Of a stretch of DNA of 64,000 bases, positions 13,526 to 50,802 are shown one piece after another. Where the stretch lies: the NCBI RefSeq assembly GCF_000373785.1, contig NZ_KB892378.1, forward strand, positions 326,406 through 390,405, read 5' to 3'. This stretch comes from Erysipelothrix tonsillarum DSM 14972 (GTDB lineage Bacteria; Bacillota_I; Bacilli_A; Erysipelotrichales; Erysipelotrichaceae). The first letter of the stretch is position 1. Every line of letters begins with the position of its first letter. Made by a program: the position numbers and the translations under genes. The notes below the pieces were generated by a model. That model did not search any database and was not told where the DNA came from. It saw nothing but the letters and a program-made list of their open reading frames with translations.

Positions 13526-14455
13526 TTAGTTTTCTGTATTACATTTTTGAATTGATTCTAAGAACCATGATTTGAACATCTCAGCATCAATATCTGTTGT
13601 TACTTTAGCATTTTCAGGCTGACCACAATATCCTTTAAGATCAACTACAGTCGCTCCTGAAGTATATTCTCCCTGTGTCTCAATCCCAACAAATGTTTCA
13701 ACTACTTCAAACATTTCAGGTTTGAGTAAGTAGGCAATCGCACAACTATCATACATCTTTAATCCAACTCCGAAACTTCCACCACGGTATGTTTTAAAGA
13801 GATGATAGAACATATTCCCTACTTTATTCATATCTTTAATTACTTCTGAGTCTTCTGGATAGACTAATGCTTTAAGCCCAACATCAAGTCCAGCCATAAC
13901 AATGTTCATGCCGCTTTCAAATACAATTTTAGCTGCTTCTGGGTCTGCTTTAATATTAAATTCAGAGTAAACACCCGCATTCCCACGACCAACGCTACCA
14001 CCCATTAAAACAACTTCATCGATGTTTTCCATAACCTCAGGGTATTCACGAATTAAAAGCGCAATATTGGTAAGTGGACCAATCGGAACAATCGTGATTT
14101 TTTCATCGCTATTCATAATCACTTCTCGCATTGCTTCAATCGCATTTTTATCTAATAGCAAACTACGATCTTCTTCCGGGAAGTCATAACCATCCATTCC
14201 CGTTTTACCATGTACACCACTTGCATCAATCGGTTCCCTTAAAAGCGGACGGGATGCCCCAATGGCAACCGGTACATTTTTTCCGTAAAATGGTAATAAT
14301 TTAAGAATGTTTTTGGTGACCTTCTCAATACTTACATTCCCAGCAACGGTTGTAATTAACTGCACATCCAATTCTTCAGAAAAGAGTGCAATGGCTAAAG
14401 CGACCGCATCATCAATTCCTGGATCGGTATCAATAATAATTTTTCTTTTATTCAT
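13526..14455 (-). CDS. Inosine-uridine-preferring nucleoside hydrolase family
   Basis: 309 residues from the ATG at 14455; an adjacent ATG at 14458 leaves only two bases after AGGAGG. The N-terminal calcium-site motif IIIDTDPGIDDAVALAIAL is diagnostic of the IunH/CU-NH fold. Further motifs are IVPIGPLTNIALLI and VVLMGGSVGRGNAGVYSEFN with N-I-K-A-D-P-E-A following. It hydrolyses ribonucleosides to base plus ribose; the base preference cannot be set. It overlaps the ribokinase gene by 8 bp, so the ribose released would be phosphorylated by the next enzyme. It belongs to the LacI-controlled operon. Confidence 0.92.
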   Translation of the reverse strand: MNKRKIIIDTDPGIDDAVALAIALFSEELDVQLITTVAGNVSIEKVTKNILKLLPFYGKNVPVAIGASRPLLREPIDASGVHGKTGMDGYDFPEEDRSLLLDKNAIEAMREVIMNSDEKITIVPIGPLTNIALLIREYPEVMENIDEVVLMGGSVGRGNAGVYSEFNIKADPEAAKIVFESGMNIVMAGLDVGLKALVYPEDSEVIKDMNKVGNMFYHLFKTYRGGSFGVGLKMYDSCAIAYLLKPEMFEVVETFVGIETQGEYTSGATVVDLKGYCGQPENAKVTTDIDAEMFKSWFLESIQKCNTEN

Positions 14456-15374
14456 CATTTCCTCCTTGATTCATAAAATCAACTAACATTTCAAATGTAG
14501 GAAGTGCTTCCTGAGCACCTTGTTTTGTACAAGCGAGCGCTCCCGCTGCACTTGCATACGTCAATGCTTTTTCAATTCGCCAATTTTTACTTAAACCAAA
14601 TAATAGCGTTCCAATATATGTATCACCAGCACCGGTTGTATCCACAACATCTACTTTAAATGAACGAATACGAATACTATCGCTTTGACTTACGCAAACA
14701 CTGCCTTCACCACCGAGTGTAAACACAACACAACCGACACCACGTTTGAAGAGAATTGCTGCAGCCTTTTCACAATCATCTGCATTCTTAGGGAATATTC
14801 CCGATAAGATTTCGCTCTCTGATTGATTAACCACAAGATAATCAATCAATGGATAGAAATCATCATTCATGACCACAGCGGGTGCAGGATTTACAACCGT
14901 TGTCATTCCTAAAGCTTTCGCACTTTTTAAACCTTCAAAGACGGCATATAAGGGTACCTCAAATTGTGTTAAGAAGAAATCTTCTTCATTTCCTTTTAAG
15001 GCTTCATGAATCCGAGGAACACTAATATTTGCATTTGCTCCTTGATTAATAATAATCCGATTGTCATTATCCGTTTTAATAATAACTGCAGTGCCTGTAT
15101 GCTCATCCTCACTAATTAAAACATTTGATGTATCAATCCCGAAGTTATTGAGTGCATTTAATGCAAGTTGTCCATGATAATCACGACCAACACTTCCAAT
15201 TAAATAGGTTGGAGCGCCAAGTTTCGCACATGCAGCAGCTTGATTACCACCTTTTCCACCAATTGCTTCAAAATAGTCATAACCCGCAATGGTTTCACCT
15301 TGCTGCGGAATACGATTTGCTGAAATCATTAAATCAGCATTAACACTTCCCAATACATAAACTTTACTACTCAT
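14448..15374 (-). CDS. rbsK: Ribokinase (PfkB family)
   Basis: 308 residues from ATG 15374, the normal length. PfkB motifs: GSVNADLM near the N-terminus, GGKGGNQAAACAKLGA for the sugar site, and DTTGAGDTYIGTLLFGLSKN with the catalytic Asp. It converts D-ribose to ribose 5-phosphate. The start at 15374 aligns with the family; a start at 15392 is also possible. The chosen ATG overlaps the GNAT stop codon (ATGAGTAG). Neighbouring nucleoside hydrolase supplies ribose, making a short salvage pathway into the pentose phosphate route. Confidence 0.92.
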   Translation of the reverse strand: MSSKVYVLGSVNADLMISANRIPQQGETIAGYDYFEAIGGKGGNQAAACAKLGAPTYLIGSVGRDYHGQLALNALNNFGIDTSNVLISEDEHTGTAVIIKTDNDNRIIINQGANANISVPRIHEALKGNEEDFFLTQFEVPLYAVFEGLKSAKALGMTTVVNPAPAVVMNDDFYPLIDYLVVNQSESEILSGIFPKNADDCEKAAAILFKRGVGCVVFTLGGEGSVCVSQSDSIRIRSFKVDVVDTTGAGDTYIGTLLFGLSKNWRIEKALTYASAAGALACTKQGAQEALPTFEMLVDFMNQGGNDE

Positions 15375-15789
15375 AGAATAATACCATCCCACTTCCTAAA
15401 CCTTCAGTAGGTCTTTCAATAAAACCATACTTAGCGTAAAACTTTTCAACACCTGGTGTAGCCATCAGTCCCACATAAGCACCTTTACAAGCGTGCTTGG
15501 ATAAGTAGTTGAAGAAAGCCTTCATAATCAATTCGCCACAACCTTGGTGCTGATAATCCGGATGTACAATAACATCCTTGAGAAAGAATACAATTCTTCC
15601 ATCACCGACGACACGTGCAATAGCAACCGCTCGGTCACCATCGTATACCACAACATCGTATAAATCATGATCGAGAGCAATCTTTATATCCTCTAAATCG
15701 TATTCTTTAAAGTGACATACTTCATGCATTTCTCGATAAAGCGCCGGAGTAAGCACATTTTCTACCAATATATAATCTTTAGTCTTCAT
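15367..15789 (-). CDS. GNAT family N-acetyltransferase
   Basis: 140 residues, a single GNAT domain. The acetyl-CoA pyrophosphate loop is visible as VIVHPDYQHQGCGELIMKAF near residues 93-112, and the C-terminal FYAKYGFIERPTEGLGSGM is typical. Acceptor substrate unknown. It is first in the operon with ribokinase, nucleoside hydrolase and the DcuC-like transporter, an unusual companion for nucleoside salvage. The Shine-Dalgarno AAGGAGG lies 14 bases before the ATG and an operator-like palindrome sits between them, so repressor binding and translation initiation signals overlap. Confidence 0.85.
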   Translation of the reverse strand: MKTKDYILVENVLTPALYREMHEVCHFKEYDLEDIKIALDHDLYDVVVYDGDRAVAIARVVGDGRIVFFLKDVIVHPDYQHQGCGELIMKAFFNYLSKHACKGAYVGLMATPGVEKFYAKYGFIERPTEGLGSGMVLFYE

Positions 15790-17510: not shown

Positions 17511-17545
17511 AAAAAAAAGGGAATCACTTTAATGTGATTCCTTTC
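17510..17545. terminator. Bidirectional terminator
   Basis: GGAATCAC / GTGATTCC (17519-17542) with an A run on the left and a T-rich tract on the right. It ends both the CMD gene and the convergent LPSTG protein gene, whose last codons lie inside it. Confidence 0.85.
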
Positions 17546-20500
17546 TTTTGTTTGTAATGATAACAAGCAGTAATCCGCCTAAAAGCGTAATCATACTTCC
17601 GATTATCCATAGTGGCTCTGTTGCAATTCCAGTAGACGGTAAACTTCCCGTATTAACTAAATTACTCGAACCGTTTTGCGGATTCTTATCCATTTGTTGT
17701 GGTTTATCCGTATGACCCGTATTTTCCGGGTTCTCTGTATTCCCCGGTTTTTCAGGATTACTTGGTGTTTCAGGATTATTCGTTTGAACAAAATTCACCC
17801 ATTTCCCAAGATCATGGTGTGGATCATCAATCGAGACTTCAATACGATGGGAAATATTTGATTTTTGATATCCCTCAGGAGCTTGGATTTCTTCAACTCG
17901 ATATATTCCTTCAGTAAGGTTTTCAAATTCAATGAGTCCATCACTATCTGAAGTGAGCTTTTGAAGCGGTTGATCTACCGCCGGATTCGCATTTCCATCC
18001 CATAGTCCGAAGACCGCACCTTGTAAGGCATGATCCGTTTCATCAACTTTATGAATCTGGATGCTCCCATCCGTCATGTGCATATCACGTTTATTGATCA
18101 CATTACCTAAATCAACATTCAGATTCTGTGGCGTAATAATGGCTTGATATGTGTCATTTCCAAGAATATATCCTTGGGGTGCCGTAATTTCTTTAATCGT
18201 GTACGTTCCTTGATCGATATTGATAAACTCTACAAGACCATCCGCTTGACTTGAAGCCGTCGCGATTGGTGCCTGATTTTGTGCGTGCTGTTCCCATATT
18301 CCAAAGACCGCACCTTGAAGACCTTGACCTTGTTCATCAACTTTAGTTAAGGTAATTCTACCATTGTAAACAATTACAGTTTCATCATTTTTAATATCTT
18401 CATGAACGACTTCGAGTTCTGTTCCATCGACTTTAATTGGATATACAGTTGAATCTAAATCATATCCTGTAGGTGCTGCAATTTCTTTTAACTGGTAATC
18501 ACCTTGAATTAAGTTGTTGAAGAAAACAAAGCCATTAACACCACTTGTCGTTTGCATCATCGGTGCGACAACATCGGTATCTTCGCCATCATGCCATAGA
18601 CCAAATAGTGCACCAGCAAGAGGATTGTTGTTTGCATCCGTTTTCTTAAATTCGATACTTCCAACAGAACGTATTAAGCCAAGATCAATATTATCAATCG
18701 ACCCACCACTGTTGAGGACAAACACTTCAGATTTGAAGTCTTCATCAAATTTAGAATCGCGATTGGTATTTGTCCCTTGATGGGATGGTGAAGGTTTATA
18801 ATGCTTATCCGCATAGTCTGCATCAACGCGATAACTACCCGGTTTTACATTTCTAAATTCATATTTACCGTTTGCATCCGTCTTTGTTTTCATTACGACG
18901 GTTTCACTTTGATCATCATAAACGCTCACTAAGGTTAGCGAAACGTCTTTGATCCCTTTTTCATTTGAATCTTGAATTCCGTTTTCATTGCCATCTTCCC
19001 ATACATAATCACCGATGTGCCCAAATTTAACAAACCCGGCATCAATGTGTTTTGGTTCCGCTTCTTTTTTCAGATTAACATAAGCTTCTGACATCGCTTT
19101 ATTTCCGATTGAGAACGCAAAATCATTATCAATGGTCTTATCATTACCAATATGGAATTCCGTCGGATGATGAGCAATTGGAGTATCAATCTCTACACGG
19201 TATGGTTTTTGGTATAAGCTTCTAAATTTGTATGACCCTTGATTATCGGTATCAAAGGTATTAACAAGAGAGTCATTCCAGTCATAAAGTCGAACTTCAC
19301 GATTTTTTAATAACGGTTCATTTGTATCATAGATACCATTACCATTTTCGTCAATAAATAGTTTTCCTTCAAGTTCACGATCAGCTACTTCTGAACTTAA
19401 GTAAATACCTGCTTTTAACGGTTCACCAGGCAAGAGATACTTGGTACCATTTTCTTCGAATTCCCCACCTGCGGAAATCGCCATCCAAGCTACCTTTACA
19501 TCATCTGATTGAGTGGGAAGTTCAACTTTTATGTCATAGGCTACATCTTCTGCAGCATCCAACCCATCCTTTTTCACAATTTTTAACGCTACGGTATCAT
19601 CCGGTAACGGGGAAACGGTATCCCATAGCACCCAAGTTGAACTTACTTGATTAAAATCAACAAGTTCTTCACGATTAGCTTGTGGAGTCGCATCAACTGA
19701 ATAATAAACCTCCTCTTGAGTTGACAAAGTTCCTGTATTCTTGTTTATAACTCCTACAACTTTAGGAAATAAATCCGATTTCTTATTGCTTTCATTGGTT
19801 ACCATACTGTCATTTGCAATTGGTAACATCGCAATAACATGCATTTCATCAATTTTTGCTTGACCCTTATTTTTTATTTTGAGCATGTAAAATCCATCAG
19901 TTTGTCCTAGAACGGCATTTGCCGTTTGTGTATAAACACCACCATTGGTTGATGCTCGAACAATCTGGTCTAAACGAAGATCATTAACGAAATTTACAGT
20001 ACGCCATTTTGAAGCTTCGGCTACACGAATTCGCCCATAGACGGGTACATTTTCAAAATAGTTGTTATTTTTTTCGAATTTTTGAGACAGATCGTTTGAC
20101 CCCAAAAAGGTATTGATTTGAGCGGAAGTTCCATAACGTCCCATTCCCGTAATCCGAACACGTCCAAAATCATTTCCCCATCCCCAATTTGGCATATCTT
20201 GGTCATAGGTTACACGAATCACATGCTTGTCACTGTGCGGATCTTCCACAATTTCGATATCCGCATTTGGCATACCATTAACGGTTACATTTTTAATTTC
20301 AATATTTCCATCCACAATAAAATAAGCTACTGGTTGATTAAGTTTATCCGAACCAACATTATGAAAGCGAAGTTCAAAGTTAAACTCCTCACCATGAGGA
20401 AGTGTTCCAGGATAAAAAGGTGATTCCCATCCTGCAAATCCAATATTGGGTCCACTGTATTTATACGTTGTTTGACTCAATAGTTGACTATCCGAATTAT

Positions 20501-22049
20501 TTTGGATTACTTCATAGCCACCCTTTACTTCTTTTTCGCCTGAGACATAAACCGTATTCGTAATACCATCATCGAAAGAGGTTCCCGCGTTTGTTATGCC
20601 TGCAGTTGTTTGTGACTCCACAAAAACATCCACACTTCCCGATTCAGGAGGAATGATATTTGAGCCTTCATACGAGTAAACAAATTTAAAACGTGTGACA
20701 TAATCATCTGCATCTAGGTTTAAACTTGATAAAGCAATATTTCCTTGGTAAGCAGGAACACTTAAGACATTCCACGTCCCAGGATTTTTAAATGTATCAT
20801 AGAAAATCTCTGTCTTAATTTTTCCTGTTTTTAAAGGGTTCTTTCCTGCCTTTGCTTCCCATCGGATTGCTGAGAATCTTTGCCCTTCAAAAAAGTCGAC
20901 TTCATTTTCTTGTTGTGGATCATCGATTAAAGTTAGGTCTTTAAATCCTGAAATAGGTTGAACATGAACCTTATATTCAATGGTCTCTTGCGCTTGTCGA
21001 TAAATTGGATTCGTAGCCGATTTGTTCATACTCTTAGAAATGGGTTGCGACGTTCCTGCTCCTACCGTTTCTTCAAGTTCGTAATAATCCTGAACCGCTT
21101 CATCCAGTCCGTATCGATTTGCTTTGTAATCAATTTTAATTTTATGTTTCTTTTGACCTGTTTCGACAGGTTGATATGAATAAGTGAATTCTACTACTTT
21201 TTTATCATCCAAAACATCATGATTTCCCATTGCGATTTTCGCAACTTGCGTTCCATCAGCCAATGTTTCAACGGGATAATTTTGTCCCTCATACATTACG
21301 GATATAATATTTGCTTCGCTTGGAAAGGTAATCATAACTTCAACATCTTCACGGTTTAATCCACCAACACTGTTTTCAGGTAAAATATCAATGGTAGATG
21401 TGTGAACGAAGACAGGGTCTCCCTCTTCCGTCGTCGCACCGTCCAAAGCCTTAGGAGCTGCAATATTTTTCGGAGTTACTACTGTTTTATCCAGTACAAC
21501 ACCATTCATATTATCAGCAGTTAATTCAACATTGGGATTAAAAATATCGGCTGGAATTGTTGTTCCAGGTTCAAACTTAAATTCTGCATGAAGTCTTAAT
21601 AATGAACCGATTGCTCGCTCATCATTAAATGAAATTGTAACCTGGTCTCCCGGTTGCGGTTGTGCAGGTGCTACGGTATAAAGTCCATTTGATTGGGGAA
21701 AATCAACAATCTCTAAATAACTTGGAATTGTTAAATGAACAGCATAGTTTTTCACCCCTTCTTCCGCTTGAATACCGTTGCTTAAACTGTTTAATTGTAA
21801 ATCAACTGAAAAAAGATCATTCGTAAGCGGATTTAGATTCGATACGTTAATAACACCGACTAAATCCCCTAAAATAACATTCCCTCGAGTCATCTCTTTC
21901 TTTTCTTCATGATTCATTTTGTCCGATGTTATTTCTGTAGTTGCATCATCGTTATGAGTTTGGTCATTGTTTGCACTGATAACCCCTGTCGATAACGAGA
22001 ACACAAGTAGAAATACCATTATTGTTTTAAATAAACGATTTGTTTTCAC
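17529..22049 (-). CDS. LPXTG-anchored surface protein with SdrD-B and SpaA/Cna-B-like domains
   Basis: 1506 residues. A signal peptide (residues about 1-26) precedes a large ectodomain of about 900 residues rich in beta-strand and DUF11-like segments. Two SdrD B-type domains follow: FIDENGNGIYDTNEP near 940 and DYVWEDGNENGIQDSNEKG near 1010. Three prealbumin-like SpaA domains come next, each opening like GSIEFKKTDANNNPLAGALF, between about 1130 and 1400. A Pro/Asn/Glu-rich spacer leads to LPSTG at about 1470, a membrane helix and the tail NKRKESH. It should be linked to peptidoglycan by a class A sortase and probably serves in adhesion. It is monocistronic. Confidence 0.93.
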   Translation of the reverse strand: MKTNRLFKTIMVFLLVFSLSTGVISANNDQTHNDDATTEITSDKMNHEEKKEMTRGNVILGDLVGVINVSNLNPLTNDLFSVDLQLNSLSNGIQAEEGVKNYAVHLTIPSYLEIVDFPQSNGLYTVAPAQPQPGDQVTISFNDERAIGSLLRLHAEFKFEPGTTIPADIFNPNVELTADNMNGVVLDKTVVTPKNIAAPKALDGATTEEGDPVFVHTSTIDILPENSVGGLNREDVEVMITFPSEANIISVMYEGQNYPVETLADGTQVAKIAMGNHDVLDDKKVVEFTYSYQPVETGQKKHKIKIDYKANRYGLDEAVQDYYELEETVGAGTSQPISKSMNKSATNPIYRQAQETIEYKVHVQPISGFKDLTLIDDPQQENEVDFFEGQRFSAIRWEAKAGKNPLKTGKIKTEIFYDTFKNPGTWNVLSVPAYQGNIALSSLNLDADDYVTRFKFVYSYEGSNIIPPESGSVDVFVESQTTAGITNAGTSFDDGITNTVYVSGEKEVKGGYEVIQNNSDSQLLSQTTYKYSGPNIGFAGWESPFYPGTLPHGEEFNFELRFHNVGSDKLNQPVAYFIVDGNIEIKNVTVNGMPNADIEIVEDPHSDKHVIRVTYDQDMPNWGWGNDFGRVRITGMGRYGTSAQINTFLGSNDLSQKFEKNNNYFENVPVYGRIRVAEASKWRTVNFVNDLRLDQIVRASTNGGVYTQTANAVLGQTDGFYMLKIKNKGQAKIDEMHVIAMLPIANDSMVTNESNKKSDLFPKVVGVINKNTGTLSTQEEVYYSVDATPQANREELVDFNQVSSTWVLWDTVSPLPDDTVALKIVKKDGLDAAEDVAYDIKVELPTQSDDVKVAWMAISAGGEFEENGTKYLLPGEPLKAGIYLSSEVADRELEGKLFIDENGNGIYDTNEPLLKNREVRLYDWNDSLVNTFDTDNQGSYKFRSLYQKPYRVEIDTPIAHHPTEFHIGNDKTIDNDFAFSIGNKAMSEAYVNLKKEAEPKHIDAGFVKFGHIGDYVWEDGNENGIQDSNEKGIKDVSLTLVSVYDDQSETVVMKTKTDANGKYEFRNVKPGSYRVDADYADKHYKPSPSHQGTNTNRDSKFDEDFKSEVFVLNSGGSIDNIDLGLIRSVGSIEFKKTDANNNPLAGALFGLWHDGEDTDVVAPMMQTTSGVNGFVFFNNLIQGDYQLKEIAAPTGYDLDSTVYPIKVDGTELEVVHEDIKNDETVIVYNGRITLTKVDEQGQGLQGAVFGIWEQHAQNQAPIATASSQADGLVEFINIDQGTYTIKEITAPQGYILGNDTYQAIITPQNLNVDLGNVINKRDMHMTDGSIQIHKVDETDHALQGAVFGLWDGNANPAVDQPLQKLTSDSDGLIEFENLTEGIYRVEEIQAPEGYQKSNISHRIEVSIDDPHHDLGKWVNFVQTNNPETPSNPEKPGNTENPENTGHTDKPQQMDKNPQNGSSNLVNTGSLPSTGIATEPLWIIGSMITLLGGLLLVIITNKRKESH

Positions 22050-43561: not shown

Positions 43562-44305
43562 TTAAAAATTTTTAAGCAATTTTCGATTGATAGCCATGAT
43601 TGTCTTAACATCTTCAACCTTAGTTTTTCCAGTATCCGCATCGATAATTGATGAATAGATATGGGGAATAACATGTTGAACACCTGCATCCAAAATAATG
43701 GTCATGATTTCTTCATAATTTTCAAGATCAATACCACCTGTTGGTTCTAAGCAAAGATTGTTTTGAGCACATGCTTTTGCTACGGCTTTAAGTTCATCTT
43801 TAACTTGCAAGCCTTTCATTGGGAAAAATTTCAGTGCATTGCCACCCATATCTTTAACCATCGCAATTGCAGTATCGATGGAGACGATAGCCGGCTCATC
43901 ACAATGACTGCTTGTTGGACCGGTTGAAATTGCTAGATAGCCCGGTTTTCCGGTTGGTGATACCAACGCATTGATATGCGAATCATGATTATCGCCGACT
44001 TTAGCACGTGTATATGCCACGGCCGTAAAGACTTGATTAATATGGTTTGCTTTAACATGCTCACTGATGTCACCTACGGCTTTCCATTGATTTGGGTTTC
44101 CAGCACCCAAGCCAATAGAAAGATTGTTATCAAGCGCTGCAGCATAACGATTCATATCCGTTACGCCTTCTTCAACCGTTGGATAATTAATGGAGAGAAC
44201 CCCAACAACTACATGGCCTTCTGCTGCTTCATAAATTTCTTTTGCATTTTCTAAATCATGCGCCAGAACATTGATACAAATTCGATCATTTAAATATGGA
44301 ATCAT
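43562..44305 (-). CDS. dgaF: 2-dehydro-3-deoxy-phosphogluconate aldolase, DgaF/EF_0839 family
   Basis: 247 residues. Family landmarks include the N-terminal MIPYLNDRICINVLAHDLEN, VGVLSINYPTVEEGV and GNALKFFPMKGL (with the Schiff-base-region Lys), then CLEPTGGIDLENY and HVIPHIYSSIIDADTGKT. The Salmonella homologue DgaF cleaves 2-keto-3-deoxygluconate 6-phosphate to pyruvate and glyceraldehyde 3-phosphate. It starts one base after the dgaE stop codon and is the last gene of the operon. Confidence 0.88.
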   Translation of the reverse strand: MIPYLNDRICINVLAHDLENAKEIYEAAEGHVVVGVLSINYPTVEEGVTDMNRYAAALDNNLSIGLGAGNPNQWKAVGDISEHVKANHINQVFTAVAYTRAKVGDNHDSHINALVSPTGKPGYLAISTGPTSSHCDEPAIVSIDTAIAMVKDMGGNALKFFPMKGLQVKDELKAVAKACAQNNLCLEPTGGIDLENYEEIMTIILDAGVQHVIPHIYSSIIDADTGKTKVEDVKTIMAINRKLLKNF

Positions 44306-44306
44306 C

Positions 44307-45410
44307 TTATACCTCTTTCATAATTTCTTTAAAACGTTGTACAATGACTTCTAAATCATTGGATACAAGCGGACGGGTATCCAAGGTAATATAACCCTCG
44401 TTAATACGATGACCACGACAATGTATTGAAGGATTTCCTTCCTTAAGATGTTGGTCAACCACAAAGGCATCACCGCTGGTAATTTTAACTTGTGCACGAT
44501 AGATCTCACGTCCAGCTTCATCTTGTACTTCTTGAACCTCAAGACCTTTTATTTGATTTAGATTTTGTACTAAATAAGCAACATCTTGATGGTTTTTTGT
44601 TACTATGGCTGCTTCATCACGTGTGTTATATATCTCAAGCGCTTTAAGTAGTCCCATAATACCTTCTTTACCAATTTTCATGGGACGACCAATTCCTTGA
44701 TATTGAAGGTGAGCATTGTGAATCAAATCTTTACGACCTGTAATAAATCCTGAAGTTGTTGCTTCAAAAGCTTTTGCGCCTGAATAAATTACAAGGTCAG
44801 CTCCCATTGCAATATAACGGCGCAAATCTTCTTCTGCAGCCGCATCTACAATAATAGGAAGATGATGCTTATGAGCGAGTTTAATCATGGCATCAAGGGC
44901 AATCATACCTTTTTGAACCGTGTGATGGCTCTTAACGTACAACATCCCGGCAGTATTTTCATTAATCTCTGCTTCCATGTCTGCTACCGTTACAGCATTA
45001 ACAAGGCCCGCTTCAATCGGAACCCCACCACCTAAACGTACCATCGTGGCAATCGGTGCTCCAAAGCCTACGATGTGACCCTTAGGGATAATAATTTCAT
45101 TTTTTAATCCTGAAGAATTTGGAAGTGAACGAATGTGTTTGATATTATCTTTTGCGATAAGAGCAGCAACACTAATCGCAATACCTGCCGAAGCAGAAGA
45201 AGTTACTAAACTTGCTTCCGCACCGGTGTATTGTGAAATAATTTCGCCCGATCTGATAAATAAATCATCAATCACCACATAGGATTGACCGCCTTCGACG
45301 GCAGCCTTTCCTACTTCATCACTGAGTGCTGAAACACCAAGTGCCGTCATACGACCACTCGCGTTTATAACACGTTTAAGACCAATCTTCTCATAAATAT
45401 TTTTTTTCAT
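44307..45410 (-). CDS. dgaE: D-glucosaminate-6-phosphate ammonia-lyase, DgaE family (SelA-like, PLP)
   Basis: 367 residues, type I fold PLP enzyme of the SelA-related (TIGR01437) family. Visible are RVINASGRMTALGVSALSDE at the N-terminus, SLVTSSASAGIAISVAALIA (cofactor ring segment), PIIVDAAAEEDLRRYIAMGA (Asp to pyridine N) and VIYSGAKAFEATTSGFITGR with the PLP Lys. The Salmonella enzyme deaminates D-glucosaminate 6-phosphate to 2-keto-3-deoxygluconate 6-phosphate. It starts three bases after the DUF4310 stop codon. With dgaF it forms the catabolic end of the operon. Confidence 0.88.
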   Translation of the reverse strand: MKKNIYEKIGLKRVINASGRMTALGVSALSDEVGKAAVEGGQSYVVIDDLFIRSGEIISQYTGAEASLVTSSASAGIAISVAALIAKDNIKHIRSLPNSSGLKNEIIIPKGHIVGFGAPIATMVRLGGGVPIEAGLVNAVTVADMEAEINENTAGMLYVKSHHTVQKGMIALDAMIKLAHKHHLPIIVDAAAEEDLRRYIAMGADLVIYSGAKAFEATTSGFITGRKDLIHNAHLQYQGIGRPMKIGKEGIMGLLKALEIYNTRDEAAIVTKNHQDVAYLVQNLNQIKGLEVQEVQDEAGREIYRAQVKITSGDAFVVDQHLKEGNPSIHCRGHRINEGYITLDTRPLVSNDLEVIVQRFKEIMKEV

Positions 45411-45413
45411 ATC

Positions 45414-46085
45414 CTAAAGGAAAATAGCCCCGAAAATCATAGCACCAAGAATTGCTCCACCAGTGATTTCTTTATCCCATTTATAGAATAGTACTGAACC
45501 AACGATTGCTCCAATACCTGTCCATACATTGAATTGTCCAGCTGCAATAACAATCATAGGTCCTAAGTAACGTCCGGCAGCATTTCCAGCTCCCATCATA
45601 ACTTCGGTACCACCTACTGCAACACCTTCTGGCATTGTTTTACGAACCGCCATAATGATTGCACCAATTACAAGCCCTAAAACCGCACCAGTGATTAATG
45701 CAAATCCAAAGTTATTGAATGGCAAATCGAAATTCATGGAAAGGAATAATGCTGGTAAACCAATACCAACTCCTGTCATTAATGATCCACCGATATCTAA
45801 AACCCCAACAAGAGGTCCTTCAAGAATACGAGCAATTAAGAATCCAGCTGCAAATCCAGCCGCAGCAGTATAATCACCACCGTCAAGTCCATCACGAAGC
45901 ATCTGTACAATCGCTAGATCATTGAATGCTCCAGTTCCAAGTTTAATATACATAAAGGTACCTGCGAAAATAGCAGCGGCTGCACCCATAATTAAGAGTA
46001 TAAATGCAGAATCCTTCATCAAGAAATCATTTAATTTGTCTACGAATGTTTTATTATTTTTAACTTCAATTGTTGTTTTTGTCAT
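45414..46085 (-). CDS. DUF4310 family membrane protein
   Basis: 223 residues with about five or six hydrophobic segments rich in Gly and Ala (FAAGFLIARILEGPLVGVLD; GGSLMTGVGIGLPALFLSMN; GGTEVMMGAGNAAGRYLGPM). Homologues are found together with DUF4311, DUF4312 and SFCGS proteins beside DgaE/DgaF-type genes, as in the Enterococcus EF_0830s cluster. No biochemical function is known to me. Position suggests it is a membrane subunit of an uptake system. AGGAGGAG precedes the ATG; 11 bp follows DUF4311. Confidence 0.85.
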   Translation of the reverse strand: MTKTTIEVKNNKTFVDKLNDFLMKDSAFILLIMGAAAAIFAGTFMYIKLGTGAFNDLAIVQMLRDGLDGGDYTAAAGFAAGFLIARILEGPLVGVLDIGGSLMTGVGIGLPALFLSMNFDLPFNNFGFALITGAVLGLVIGAIIMAVRKTMPEGVAVGGTEVMMGAGNAAGRYLGPMIVIAAGQFNVWTGIGAIVGSVLFYKWDKEITGGAILGAMIFGAIFL

Positions 46086-46096
46086 ATAATCTCCTC

Positions 46097-46816
46097 CTAG
46101 AATCCAAGTTTCGCAAAGAATCCACGGAAGTATGCAATCGCAACAAACATTACAACTACAATAGCAATCAATACACGAACAACATTGTTCTTGTATCCAT
46201 TATTTTCCGCTGACTTACCAATTAAGATCCCTAATACGATTCCTGGCACAGCATTTCCTGAAACGACTGTTGAAACACCACCAAGTACTGTTCCCCATAA
46301 TCCAGTAGTTTTCCCAGCGTCCATAGCTGCTAACCAGAAAATTGCAGGCATAACTGGATTTAGTAACCATGATGTGGCAGGTGATAGAATTTCACTTGCA
46401 ATAACTGATAATTTTTCAGGAATTAAAGATGCCGCTGTATTTAAGAATGTAACTACAACAGCGCCGATTGCTGATCCAGCTAAGAACATTTTACCTGGGT
46501 TATGAAGTGTATCTTTTTCATCACCGCCACGAGCCATTAATGCAGCCGCAGACCAGTTAGGGACAATACGGTGGAATACATCTCCGGTCAATGCACCACT
46601 AGCTAATGCTGAAGCAGCTGCATTAAAGAAGAATCCAAGTCCGAATGAGAAGTGTGAGATTGGATCTTCACTACATGCATTAAGCTCACCAAGTGTTCTA
46701 AATGCTCCCATACTTTGAATTTCTGGAGCATGAAACATACGTGCAGCACCAGCAGCGATACATCCACCACCGATAGCACCAATAATAATTGAGTAAATAA
46801 TAATTTCTATATTCAT
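46097..46816 (-). CDS. DUF4311 family membrane protein
   Basis: 239 residues, strongly hydrophobic with about six helices and Gly-rich turns (IIGAIGGGCIAAGAARMFHA; LASGALTGDVFHRIVPNWSA; GVSTVVSGNAVPGIVLGIL). Member of the DUF4310-4312/SFCGS cluster. Likely the second integral subunit. Its ATG directly follows the DUF4312 stop codon (TAGATG), and its Shine-Dalgarno AAGGAG lies inside DUF4312. Confidence 0.85.
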   Translation of the reverse strand: MNIEIIIYSIIIGAIGGGCIAAGAARMFHAPEIQSMGAFRTLGELNACSEDPISHFSFGLGFFFNAAASALASGALTGDVFHRIVPNWSAAALMARGGDEKDTLHNPGKMFLAGSAIGAVVVTFLNTAASLIPEKLSVIASEILSPATSWLLNPVMPAIFWLAAMDAGKTTGLWGTVLGGVSTVVSGNAVPGIVLGILIGKSAENNGYKNNVVRVLIAIVVVMFVAIAYFRGFFAKLGF

Positions 46817-47113
46817 CTATTCTTTCTCCTTTTGTATTTCTAAATATTTTACCTTCAGTACAACACGAGCTTTTACGATATATTTAACATCATCTTTTTT
46901 AGGCAACAATAATTTATTTTTTGTTTCCTTTTGAACATCATCGAAATATACCTCTTGTGTTTCCATTTGAATAATTGGATAATCTAATTCTTTGTATATT
47001 TGTTTATGGATTTGTTTAAAAATTGAAGCAGAGGCATCATTCATCGTCTTACCATCTCCGGTAACAACCAGTTCAAGTATAGTTTCTCGAAGCAGTTGTG
47101 TTCCTTTACTCAT
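46817..47113 (-). CDS. DUF4312 family small protein
   Basis: 98 residues, soluble by appearance, with a Lys/Glu-rich C-terminal strand pattern (KYIVKARVVLKVKYLEIQKE). The start at 47113 (MSKGTQLLRETILELV) overlaps the SFCGS stop by eight bases (ATGAGTAA), which gives a compact family-sized protein; the longer frame back to 47167 only reads SFCGS DNA in another frame. Probably a cytoplasmic subunit. Confidence 0.8.
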   Translation of the reverse strand: MSKGTQLLRETILELVVTGDGKTMNDASASIFKQIHKQIYKELDYPIIQMETQEVYFDDVQKETKNKLLLPKKDDVKYIVKARVVLKVKYLEIQKEKE

Positions 47114-47477
47114 TGCTATGCAGTTTTTGATAGGCGAGAACAACCTTTTCCCCAAGTTCCTCAACATCCATAAATCCTAATCCAATTACTTTATGACCTT
47201 GTTCAATTGCTGTGACTGCAGCTTGCACAGAACGCAAGTGCGATGTTGCTTTATATCCGTATTTCGTTTGGGCTGTGATTGCTCCAGCACCACCTGATCC
47301 ACAGAAACTAATTCCGATGTCTGCATTATTTTCATGCATTACATCACCAAGTTTCATATCTGCTGCCATGCCTGGAATTACAATTGCTTTACCACCTGCC
47401 TTTTCGATTCCTCGTGCTACAGCTTGACCACCACCCATACGGTGTCCGATTACAACTACAATTTGTTTTTCACTCAT
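47106..47477 (-). CDS. Glycine-rich SFCGS family protein
   Basis: 123 residues. An alternating beta-alpha protein with the naming motif GISFCGSGGAGAITAQTKYG. A His directly after the first strand (VVVIGHRMGGGQAVA) is placed like the phosphorylated His of mannose-class PTS EIIA domains, and the SFCGS Cys sits after another strand; the comparison is mine. Function unknown. The ATG overlaps the PRD-protein stop by four bases (ATGA). Confidence 0.85.
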   Translation of the reverse strand: MSEKQIVVVIGHRMGGGQAVARGIEKAGGKAIVIPGMAADMKLGDVMHENNADIGISFCGSGGAGAITAQTKYGYKATSHLRSVQAAVTAIEQGHKVIGLGFMDVEELGEKVVLAYQKLHSNE

Positions 47478-47806
47478 ATTCTGTCTCCTTTACTGTTTAT
47501 ATTTGTTTGAATATGTGTTGCGATTAAAATTAATTCCATGGTTGATATTTCTTGTTTAAATATCTTAAACAAAGGTTCGCCAATTTCTTTAGAGATATTA
47601 AGACTTACCTCCTCTAACTCATCCAGTACTGCGCTGTATTGATCTGCTTCCATCACAATGACTTCATCGTTCATTAAACGATCAATAAGACTACCCATGT
47701 GAGCAAAAAATGTTTCTTCAGCTACGGCATCCGTATACTGGATATTTTTAGAATCTAAATAATGCCTAATTTCTTCTAAATATGCTTGTTTATCAAAGTT
47801 TTTCAT
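47474..47806 (-). CDS. Stand-alone PRD domain protein
   Basis: 110 residues, nearly all one PRD domain. Both His positions used for PTS phosphorylation appear, in FFAHMGSLIDRL and ILIATHIQTN. With no DNA-binding domain it may be a regulatory or transport-associated subunit. The ATG at 47806 overlaps the amidohydrolase gene by 14 bp. Matches the small PRD proteins found in EF_0829-type clusters. Confidence 0.82.
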   Translation of the reverse strand: MKNFDKQAYLEEIRHYLDSKNIQYTDAVAEETFFAHMGSLIDRLMNDEVIVMEADQYSAVLDELEEVSLNISKEIGEPLFKIFKQEISTMELILIATHIQTNINSKGDRI

Positions 47807-48932
47807 TATCAATTATTTCACTACCTTCTACACGGCTAATTACCGTTTTTACGGATACAAAATTTTGGGTTAAGTCGAGCGTATCACCCATTGAATCAAC
47901 TACTGCTTCATCAACCTCTTCCAGTTTACTAATACTTAAGTCACCGAAATATCCAACCTTTAAATGTCCTAAACGATCTAAACCAAAATGATCTGCAGGT
48001 TTTGAAGTTGCATTTTCGAGACAGTCTTCCAAGGTCTCACCAATATTGATTAACTTTGTAATCACAGCATGTTGACTATAAACTGGTCCTTCATAGTTTT
48101 CGCAGTGCAAATCTGTTGAGACAAAATCGGGATAAAATCCGAGTGACTTCGCCCGCTTGAAGGTTTTAAAACTAAAACTTGCGGAACCGTGACCAACATC
48201 AAAGAGTACCCCACGTTGTCTTGCCTTTACCGCTTCTTCGATGATTTCCTTACTTTCATTTAAGATTCCACCTTTTTTTCCATGGAAGGCATGGGTCAAT
48301 ACGTCCTTTTTCTTCATTAAATTTAAGACATCTTGCAAATATGGGGGAAAGTTTCCAGTATGAATCATGATTGGTTTATCCAATTCATGAGCAAGATCTG
48401 TTGCGATTTTAATTGGAATGATTTCAAGGGATCCGCAAACGCTAGAACTGGCACGTGCTTTAAGTCCCACAATTTCCGTTGGGTATTTACGAACCATTTC
48501 TCGCACCATATCCTCATCAATTTTTTCTAAATCGTCCAACTCTCTTAATTCTACGAGCCCTTTTTTCGAGATGTTCAGCAGCGAATATACTTTAGTTTTG
48601 TGCTTTTTAATAATTTCTTCATTAAAAATTTCAAAGTTCTCGGGACCTGCACTACCGGCATCAAGGATTGTTGTGGTTCCCCTGGAAACACCGATGATAT
48701 CCGCATCAATTCCATTTACCGCTGTGCCTGTAAAACAGTGCGTATGGATATCAATCAATCCCGGTGAAATAATACAGCCTTGAGCATCAATCGATTCAAT
48801 GTCTTCGTGCTCAATGGAATCCTCAATGGCAGTGATTAGTCCATTTTCAATTAAAATATCTTTTTTATCACCATGATATCCATCAGCTTGAGATATCAGT
48901 AAACCATTCTTAACTAATAGTTTATTCATCAT
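47793..48932 (-). CDS. Amidohydrolase/deacetylase family protein (EF_0837-like)
   Basis: 379 residues, metal-dependent amidohydrolase fold. Metal motif SPGLIDIHTHCFTG near residue 57, a Lys in IVGLKARASSSVCG, then PIMIHTGNFPP, ALTHAFHGK-type and VSTDLHCENYEGP ligand segments. Homologues accompany DgaE-type genes; the substrate is unproven, plausibly an N-acyl amino-sugar acid. ATG ATG at 48932/48929 after AAGGAGAAA overlaps the regulator's stop codon by 11 bp. Confidence 0.85.
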   Translation of the reverse strand: MMNKLLVKNGLLISQADGYHGDKKDILIENGLITAIEDSIEHEDIESIDAQGCIISPGLIDIHTHCFTGTAVNGIDADIIGVSRGTTTILDAGSAGPENFEIFNEEIIKKHKTKVYSLLNISKKGLVELRELDDLEKIDEDMVREMVRKYPTEIVGLKARASSSVCGSLEIIPIKIATDLAHELDKPIMIHTGNFPPYLQDVLNLMKKKDVLTHAFHGKKGGILNESKEIIEEAVKARQRGVLFDVGHGSASFSFKTFKRAKSLGFYPDFVSTDLHCENYEGPVYSQHAVITKLINIGETLEDCLENATSKPADHFGLDRLGHLKVGYFGDLSISKLEEVDEAVVDSMGDTLDLTQNFVSVKTVISRVEGSEIIDNEKL

Positions 48933-50802
48933 TTTTTCTCCTTAATATGTATTGATAGAATGCCAATCGTTCTTCATTTGAAATGGAAATATACAGGGAA
49001 TCTTCGATGGTCGAAAAGAATGCGTTTAACGTCTTAACGAGGTCTGGATGGGATAATTCGATGTATTCATACATCGAATTCACCGCAAATTCATCTTCAA
49101 TTTCTTTCGTTTCAAACCAACGTGGAATCGCCATTACTAAGTGTATTGTAAGACCTAAGATTGAATCGTAACTCATCGGGTAGTGATCTGAAATTTCTGT
49201 AGTCAATTCAATCAATGACAGTGTTACTTCACTGATAATCTGCGAATACATTTGAATTAACTCGCTTTTCTCTCGTGGTAATTTATCTTTGATATCATCA
49301 AAATAATTCGTCATTGAGTAGCGCTTTAAGACTTTGGCACTCATATCATCATTTATGAAATGATGAATCTTGGCGATATCATTGGAAGAGAGAATATTTG
49401 AAATTTGTAATACTGGATAAATGGATTGTTCAATCGGGATGGTGGAAATGACAAAGTCAATATCCTCCAGTAACCTCAGACTCTCTAATTGGTAAAATGA
49501 CATTTGCGCCACGACTTCAAGTTGAGGGAAAACGTGCTTAATGCGTGTTACCAATAAAGTCGATAGTCCGCGTCCAGTTGAACATACGACGATGACTTTC
49601 TTTTGCCCATGAGTTTCAATTCTGTTTTTATACAAATAAATTGCGATATAACTTACTTCAGTTTCAGATAAAGTCCGTTGAAAGTGTTTTTCAAAAATCA
49701 TGCTCAACGTTTGGGCTAACTCAAAGTATTGTTTATATTTATTTTTAATCTCATCCAAAATCATCTTTTCTTCTTCATTGGAATGAATCGCTTTGCAATT
49801 AATTAATGTTTGAAAATGAAGAATTAAATCCTCATGAAGGTGTTCAAGGTTGAAGTATGATGCTTGTTCTTCAAGATACATCATCATTTCACCTAGCATC
49901 ATATTAATTTTGGGTTCATCGATGACTTGATCGTTGATAAAGACATCACTGACTCGAAGCAATTCCAACATACTATCCATTTCAAAATCACAATCCGTAT
50001 CTTCTTGACTTTGAAGGATCCCGCTCGCATATTCTAAAAGACTTTCACCTTTATGACCGTTGTATCGCCGCGGTGTTGTTTCTAATGTTAGAAAACGAGC
50101 AAGACGATAATGTCGAACGATTAAATAACATAATATGTTAAAGAATTTCTCGGAATTTAGCCACACTTGGTATTTCGCATTAAAGCGTTTATAGTTTTTG
50201 GAAATAATCGTTAATCGATTGATACTAATACAAGCACGGATTGGAACAGGTAAGTGGTGATACCAGTCTTCCGGGGTATTTCTATTTTTAATAAAAGGTA
50301 CGATAATGGCCGCTACCAAACATCTTAAGTCAAATTCGGACCCTTCGAGGTAGTACCCTTTACAGCGTTTGTTCTTAATCTTAAATGTATTTCGGTAATA
50401 AGCTTCAAAGCCCGAAAGGTAATCTGCAACACTCCGCTCGGAAATAAAGAGCGTGCTTGTTATTTCCTCAACACTTAAGTACCGACTCGTACTAAAGAGC
50501 AACAACAGTTCTTCATAGATCTGTGTCTCAATCTGTACGGGTTTAATACCTGATAATTCACCTTTCAGTTCCAAAAACTTAGCCTCAGCGAGAACGCGTT
50601 GATTAATTGGAATGTAAAATCCATTCGTAGGTGCAAAGCGTAGTTCTATATCAAACTCGCTTAGAATTGTTCGGAGGTTTGAAATGTCATAACGGATCGT
50701 TCGTTCCGACATTTTCGTAATCTCTAACAACTCTTCCATCGTTACGAATTGATTACTGGATAGAATTAAATCGTATATTTCAATTTGTCTTTGAGTAATC
50801 AT
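48922..50802 (-). CDS. BglG/MtlR-type PRD transcriptional regulator
   Basis: 626 residues. N-terminal HTH (FVTMEELLEITKMSERTIRY) and a second HTH_Mga-like domain to about 170, PRD domains about 180-395 (FEKHFQRTLSETEVSYIAIY), an EIIB-like domain with VIVVCSTGRGLSTLLVTRI near 402, and a further alpha-helical PRD-like region to the end. Such proteins are activators controlled by PTS phosphorylation. It is first gene of the operon it probably controls. The ATG lies 11 bases after GGAAG. Confidence 0.85.
   Translation of the reverse strand: MITQRQIEIYDLILSSNQFVTMEELLEITKMSERTIRYDISNLRTILSEFDIELRFAPTNGFYIPINQRVLAEAKFLELKGELSGIKPVQIETQIYEELLLLFSTSRYLSVEEITSTLFISERSVADYLSGFEAYYRNTFKIKNKRCKGYYLEGSEFDLRCLVAAIIVPFIKNRNTPEDWYHHLPVPIRACISINRLTIISKNYKRFNAKYQVWLNSEKFFNILCYLIVRHYRLARFLTLETTPRRYNGHKGESLLEYASGILQSQEDTDCDFEMDSMLELLRVSDVFINDQVIDEPKINMMLGEMMMYLEEQASYFNLEHLHEDLILHFQTLINCKAIHSNEEEKMILDEIKNKYKQYFELAQTLSMIFEKHFQRTLSETEVSYIAIYLYKNRIETHGQKKVIVVCSTGRGLSTLLVTRIKHVFPQLEVVAQMSFYQLESLRLLEDIDFVISTIPIEQSIYPVLQISNILSSNDIAKIHHFINDDMSAKVLKRYSMTNYFDDIKDKLPREKSELIQMYSQIISEVTLSLIELTTEISDHYPMSYDSILGLTIHLVMAIPRWFETKEIEDEFAVNSMYEYIELSHPDLVKTLNAFFSTIEDSLYISISNEERLAFYQYILRRKNDE

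Follow-up and report, generated by a model that had tools for sequence, protein, structure and literature searches.

What does the protein named for its SFCGS motif contribute to an operon that also encodes enzymes of the DgaE and DgaF families? The window is a stretch of 64,000 nucleotides from Erysipelothrix tonsillarum DSM 14972, and the initial annotation proposed that the SFCGS protein may be a phosphocarrier. The open reading frame described there was found as read, at positions 47106-47477 on the minus strand. It begins with ATG and encodes 123 aa, with VVVIGHRMGG after the first strand (residues 7-12 of the predicted model) and SFCGS at residues 57-61. The codons for His12 and Cys59 are located at 47442-47444 and 47301-47303 on the minus strand, respectively. 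PF14272 matches the ORF with an E-value of 2.5e-54 and a Pfam score of 182.6 bits against a cut-off of 27.3, and the NCBIfam model TIGR03577 (family EF_0830) is passed at 176.4 bits against 141.1. Judged from these profiles, the ORF is real and is a member of PF14272/TIGR03577, family EF_0830. The names assigned by NCBI to this family and to its DUF partners are those of conserved hypothetical proteins only, and no publication on SFCGS, DUF4310, DUF4311, DUF4312, their TIGR numbers or PF14272 was found in a literature search that took in few subscription papers.

The SFCGS gene belongs to an operon-like row of nine ORFs on the minus strand. The row opens with a PRD-containing regulator that carries an EIIB-like stretch (48922-50802; PF00874 over the cut-off, PF02302 at 21.5, below 23.6). 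An amidohydrolase/deacetylase-family protein (47793-48932; NF006689, 377.4 against a cut-off of 371) and a small PRD-type protein of 112 aa (47474-47812; PF00874, 23.7 bits against 23) follow, and the latter overlaps SFCGS by 4 bases. SFCGS is followed by a DUF4312 protein (46817-47101; PF14189) of 94 aa by the given start, with an alternative longer start at 47167. The next two ORFs encode a DUF4311 membrane protein with helices in its predicted model (46097-46816; PF14188) and a DUF4310 protein (45414-46085; PF14187) that is a probable membrane protein as read from its sequence. The row ends with a DgaE-family PLP-dependent ammonia lyase (44307-45410; TIGR01437, 449.9 bits) and a DgaF-family KDGP aldolase (43562-44305; NF047796, 373.7 against a cut-off of 300). 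The two PRD proteins and the DgaE protein named as neighbors in the initial annotation are present by Pfam and NCBIfam.

Gene order was compared in the loci of the best 80 of 514 relatives. SFCGS, DUF4311 and DUF4310 occur in a fixed order in 78 of these 80 loci, and the genes for the amidohydrolase, DgaE, DgaF and the regulator change places among them. The slot between SFCGS and DUF4311 is occupied by a small ORF in 73 of the 78 loci. By tblastn, DUF4312 was detected in 20 of the 80; at least one of the ORFs listed from this slot is unlike DUF4312, and all four of those tested pass Pfam. By position, a second small ORF that stops immediately ahead of SFCGS is present in 72 of the 80 loci, compared with 3 of the 80 when the small PRD-type protein of the window was used as the tblastn query. 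The PRD identity of this slot was checked with Pfam on five loci, where three ORFs are over the cut-off and two are below. Both His38 (69/73) and His100 (70/72) are conserved among its aligned rows.

Every one of the 124 aligned rows of the SFCGS family has Cys at position 59, and Arg13 (123/123) and Arg82 (124/124) are likewise invariant. The aligned rows are ORFs at a blastp E-value of ≤1e-8 from 123 of 125 loci; they come from overlapping sets and are not independent. The two loci outside the alignment are, by subtraction, L147 and L148, with RpiB-like ORFs just over the PF14272 cut-off. Among the best 80 of 514 relatives, Asp outnumbers His at position 12 by 58 to 22 (Cys59 in 80/80). The 27 rows from 25 chosen genomes, which mostly repeat genes of 25 among the genomes of the 80 loci, contain His in 16 and Asp in 11 (Cys59 in 27/27). 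In 16 motif-independent rows, obtained with the family model only, His appears 12 times and Asp 3 times with one gap, and Cys59 is found in 16/16. The best 80 of 514 relatives were gathered with two patterns, one of which contains the His motif; because that pattern favors His, it is unlikely to have raised the share of Asp. Since position 12 varies between His and Asp, it is no general phosphorylation site. Of the two residues whose conservation the initial annotation put forward as a check, the Cys is upheld across the family and the His is not, so that the outcome it named as a refutation, conservation of neither, did not arise. Cys59 could be a phosphorylation site. Two SFCGS copies, at L133 and L137, have CGGGG replacing CGSGG, and the L133 genome carries three SFCGS copies.

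Among the next matches of SFCGS are the NCBIfam models for LacB and RpiB, with E-values of 0.003-0.05 and all below the cut-off, and LacAB_rpiB (PF02502) appears in Pfam with an E-value of 0.01 and 16.3 bits, below its cut-off of 24.7. In the reverse direction, the PF14272 model matches RpiB-like ORFs in other genomes, 18 of them below the cut-off and two just over; most of those that were read carry CGTG-type or CGSG-type motifs. An independent set of 25 RpiB rows was assembled from the loci of the best matches in a separate RpiB search. With this set, hhalign gave 76% for SFCGS, an E-value of 2.2e-5 and a score of 34.8, compared with scores of ≤22.9 for 20 column shuffles. An earlier run had given 96% with RpiB rows mostly recruited by the SFCGS model itself, together with 8 of 18 EIIA, 11 of 14 EIIB and 3 of 25 PTS_IIB rows.

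The predicted model of SFCGS has a pLDDT of 92.2 and a pTM of 0.87. All 21 of its Foldseek matches at E ≤ 0.001 are RpiB or LacB, with query-normalised TM-scores of 0.52-0.67 for these first 21 rows. VIA gave a Z of 12.5 for the RpiB/LacB kind (rmsd 3.2, 119 aligned) and a Z of 8.3 for the first row of another kind. The single match at E ≤ 0.001 in the viral structure library is a sugar phosphate isomerase. A sequence-profile search of the PDB found no chain better than an E-value of 0.19, and five of the seven rows belong to the RpiB/LacAB family. By its predicted model, SFCGS most likely has the RpiB/LacAB fold in a shortened and divergent form. It shares with the RpiB/LacA/LacB isomerases (PF02502) the predicted fold over most of its length and the placement of the Cys and the Gly-rich loop; it differs in being shorter, in scoring below the PF02502 cut-off, in the loss of a His and in having the C-terminal Arg/His residues outside the match.

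Active-site residues were compared along the hhalign path. Cys59 faces the catalytic Cys of RpiB (25/25 rows), and Gly60 and Gly62 face RpiB Gly residues. The loop 57-SFCGSGGAG-65 has the layout of RpiB, in which the Cys comes behind strand 3 and leads into a turn rich in Gly. The invariant His of RpiB (H96 in L217 numbering, 25/25) faces Glu92 of SFCGS, and the four commonest residues opposite this His in the SFCGS family are Asn (56), Glu (26), Lys (22) and Ala (8), His not being among them. In the E. coli enzyme the RpiB His opens the sugar ring. Residues Asp6, His7, Arg130, His131 and Arg134 of RpiB (L217 numbering) are outside the path. The C-terminal Arg/His phosphate anchors lie past its end, and SFCGS stops a few residues later. 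The invariant Arg13 and Arg82 of SFCGS might stand in for these anchors. A 10-row MAFFT alignment puts His12 one residue before the RpiB Asp; no conclusion was drawn from this placement, as the hhalign path does not reach that N-terminal stretch. In the available part of the RpiB study PMC4783025, the Cys is the catalytic base, the NH groups of Gly70-Gly74 stabilize the intermediate, and the phosphate is anchored by His11, Arg137 and Arg141. The same part of that source reports that the H102N mutant of Leishmania RpiB is inactive.

The reading that we prefer, tentatively and with a probability of about 45%, is that SFCGS is an RpiB-fold protein that keeps the reactive Cys and is adapted to an open-chain sugar acid; we infer both the chemistry and the substrate. 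Cys59 and the Gly-rich turn would act as in RpiB, the former as the base that moves the proton and the latter by holding the enediolate through its backbone NH groups. The likely substrate of the operon is an amino sugar acid, and the ring-opening His would not be needed because such a substrate is an open chain. SFCGS would then move a proton, as an isomerase or epimerase, on the linear sugar acid or its phosphate before the steps catalyzed by DgaE and DgaF. An RpiB-like fold on a sugar acid is seen in PDB entry 4u8f (4-deoxy-L-threo-5-hexosulose-uronate ketol-isomerase), which has such a substrate by its entry title and aligns with the SFCGS model with a VIA Z of 8.3 (rmsd 2.6, 111 aligned), although its chain of 213 residues is longer than SFCGS. 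Against an isomerase or epimerase stand the Glu92 in place of the His that RpiB needs, the best PDB chain at the E-value given above, the fall of the hhalign value from the biased RpiB set to the independent one, and the range of the Foldseek TM-scores. A role as part of a transporter would account equally well or better for the constant block that SFCGS forms with the membrane proteins.

A transporter part is the substance of one alternative, in which SFCGS is a non-catalytic cytosolic component or ligand sensor of a DUF4310/DUF4311 transporter and binds the sugar acid in its RpiB-like pocket. The constant gene block with DUF4311 and DUF4310 argues for this role, as does an RpiB fold in which the catalytic His is lost and the phosphate anchors are outside the match. 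We consider it unlikely; an invariant reactive Cys with a Gly-rich loop is more than binding alone seems to need.

One of the nearest known counterparts of the operon is the D-glucosaminate system of Salmonella. According to the available part of PMC9529869, Salmonella takes up D-glucosaminate by the PTS DgaABCD, which yields the 6-phosphate. The Salmonella DgaABCDEF system has DgaE-like and DgaF-like enzymes in common with the SFCGS operon; it differs in using DgaABCD where the operon has SFCGS and DUF4310, DUF4311 and DUF4312. The DgaE-like protein of the window passes the wider DgaE family model; with the model for D-glucosaminate-6-phosphate lyase (NF047797) it scores 431 bits against a cut-off of 600. 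Because it is far below this cut-off, its substrate may be other than D-glucosaminate-6-phosphate, and the premise of the initial annotation that DgaE needs a 6-phosphate may not hold for it. The available part of PMC7701990 names EF0839, a divergent gene resembling aldolases, with a possible link to the metabolism of amino sugars. The initial annotation also stated that the operon has no separate sugar kinase. Pfam and NCBIfam showed none in the row of nine ORFs, so that this part of the statement stands; the genome as a whole holds four PfkB matches, one of them in the window. The last is a ribokinase-like ORF at about 14496-15365 (284.9 bits against a cut-off of 299.65). It was considered as the missing kinase of the operon and not taken, being about 28 kb away and beside a nucleoside hydrolase. 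The ribonucleoside hydrolase (RihC over the cut-off) and the adjoining ribokinase-like ORF occupy 13526-15392 on the minus strand.

Phosphorylation during uptake, as in Salmonella, is the core of a further alternative. In a PTS-like permease, phosphate would pass from HPr to His38/His100 of the small PRD-type protein and on to Cys59 of SFCGS, and DUF4311 and DUF4310 would carry and phosphorylate the sugar acid. The fixed grouping of SFCGS, DUF4311 and DUF4310 among genes that move, the frequent small PRD-type slot with its two conserved His residues, and the invariant Cys59 are consistent with this scheme. EI and HPr are both encoded in the E. tonsillarum genome, and EI was found in 39 of the 40 SFCGS genomes searched, the exception being G301, a genome whose completeness is not stated. 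EI is common anyway, and its presence allows a PTS link for the operon and does not show one. The placement of the Cys also counts against the scheme. The lactose/cellobiose-type EIIB proteins (PF02302) are, like SFCGS, small alpha/beta proteins with a conserved Cys, and 1iib was matched with a VIA Z of 6.9; their Cys is at column 6 (25/25 rows), near the start of the domain, whereas Cys59 is after strand 3 in the predicted model of SFCGS. DUF4311 was compared as an EIIC/EIID candidate by Pfam, Foldseek and VIA. Its model is middling (pLDDT 72.9, pTM 0.61), and there was no PTS match in Pfam, no Foldseek match at E ≤ 0.001 and no VIA Z above 5.0.

SFCGS itself matches no PTS profile. With all 18 EIIA-man (PF03610), 14 sorbose-type EIIB (PF03830) and 25 PTS_IIB rows in the final comparison, hhalign gave 0.2%, 0.8% and 0.2%, respectively, with scores of ≤15.7 that are at noise level; a control of RpiB against PTS_IIB gave 11% and a score of 22.6. 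SFCGS was rejected as a lactose/cellobiose-type EIIB on its hhalign value and on the position of its Cys. The permease described above is again an unlikely account. Slightly less likely is its fuller form as a new PTS-like permease, in which the single-PRD protein would be the EIIA equivalent, RpiB-fold SFCGS with phospho-Cys59 the EIIB equivalent, and DUF4311/DUF4310 the two membrane components; DgaE and DgaF would receive sugar-acid 6-phosphates from it. SFCGS may act as a phosphocarrier through Cys59 alone. If anything, the small PRD-type protein would be a better candidate in the operon for a phospho-His carrier than SFCGS.

The mannose-class phospho-sites are His in EIIA-man (18/18 rows) and His, not Cys, in the sorbose-type EIIB (14/14 rows). 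SFCGS was rejected as a mannose-class EIIA on its hhalign value and the His or Asp at position 12, and as a mannose-class EIIB on its hhalign value and its Cys in place of His. EIIA-man is absent among the VIA matches listed for the SFCGS model, which does not prove that the folds differ. The claim of the initial annotation that His12 and Cys59 occupy the phosphorylated positions of mannose-class EIIA and EIIB fails on residue type and profiles, and a phospho-His12/phospho-Cys59 carrier of this class is very improbable, even with an invariant Cys59 and a VIGH segment that resembles EIIA-man by eye.

From the predicted fold, the invariant reactive Cys and the list of lost residues, a hypothetical family gains two assays. 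From the predicted RpiB-like fold of SFCGS, an unstudied operon for transport and breakdown gains its first testable activity. The findings bear on how these bacteria obtain the phosphorylated sugar acid used by DgaF-type aldolases. Elsewhere in the window, a surface protein of 1506 aa that, as read by eye, has domain repeats and ends in an LPSTG-like sequence is encoded at 17529-22049 on the minus strand.
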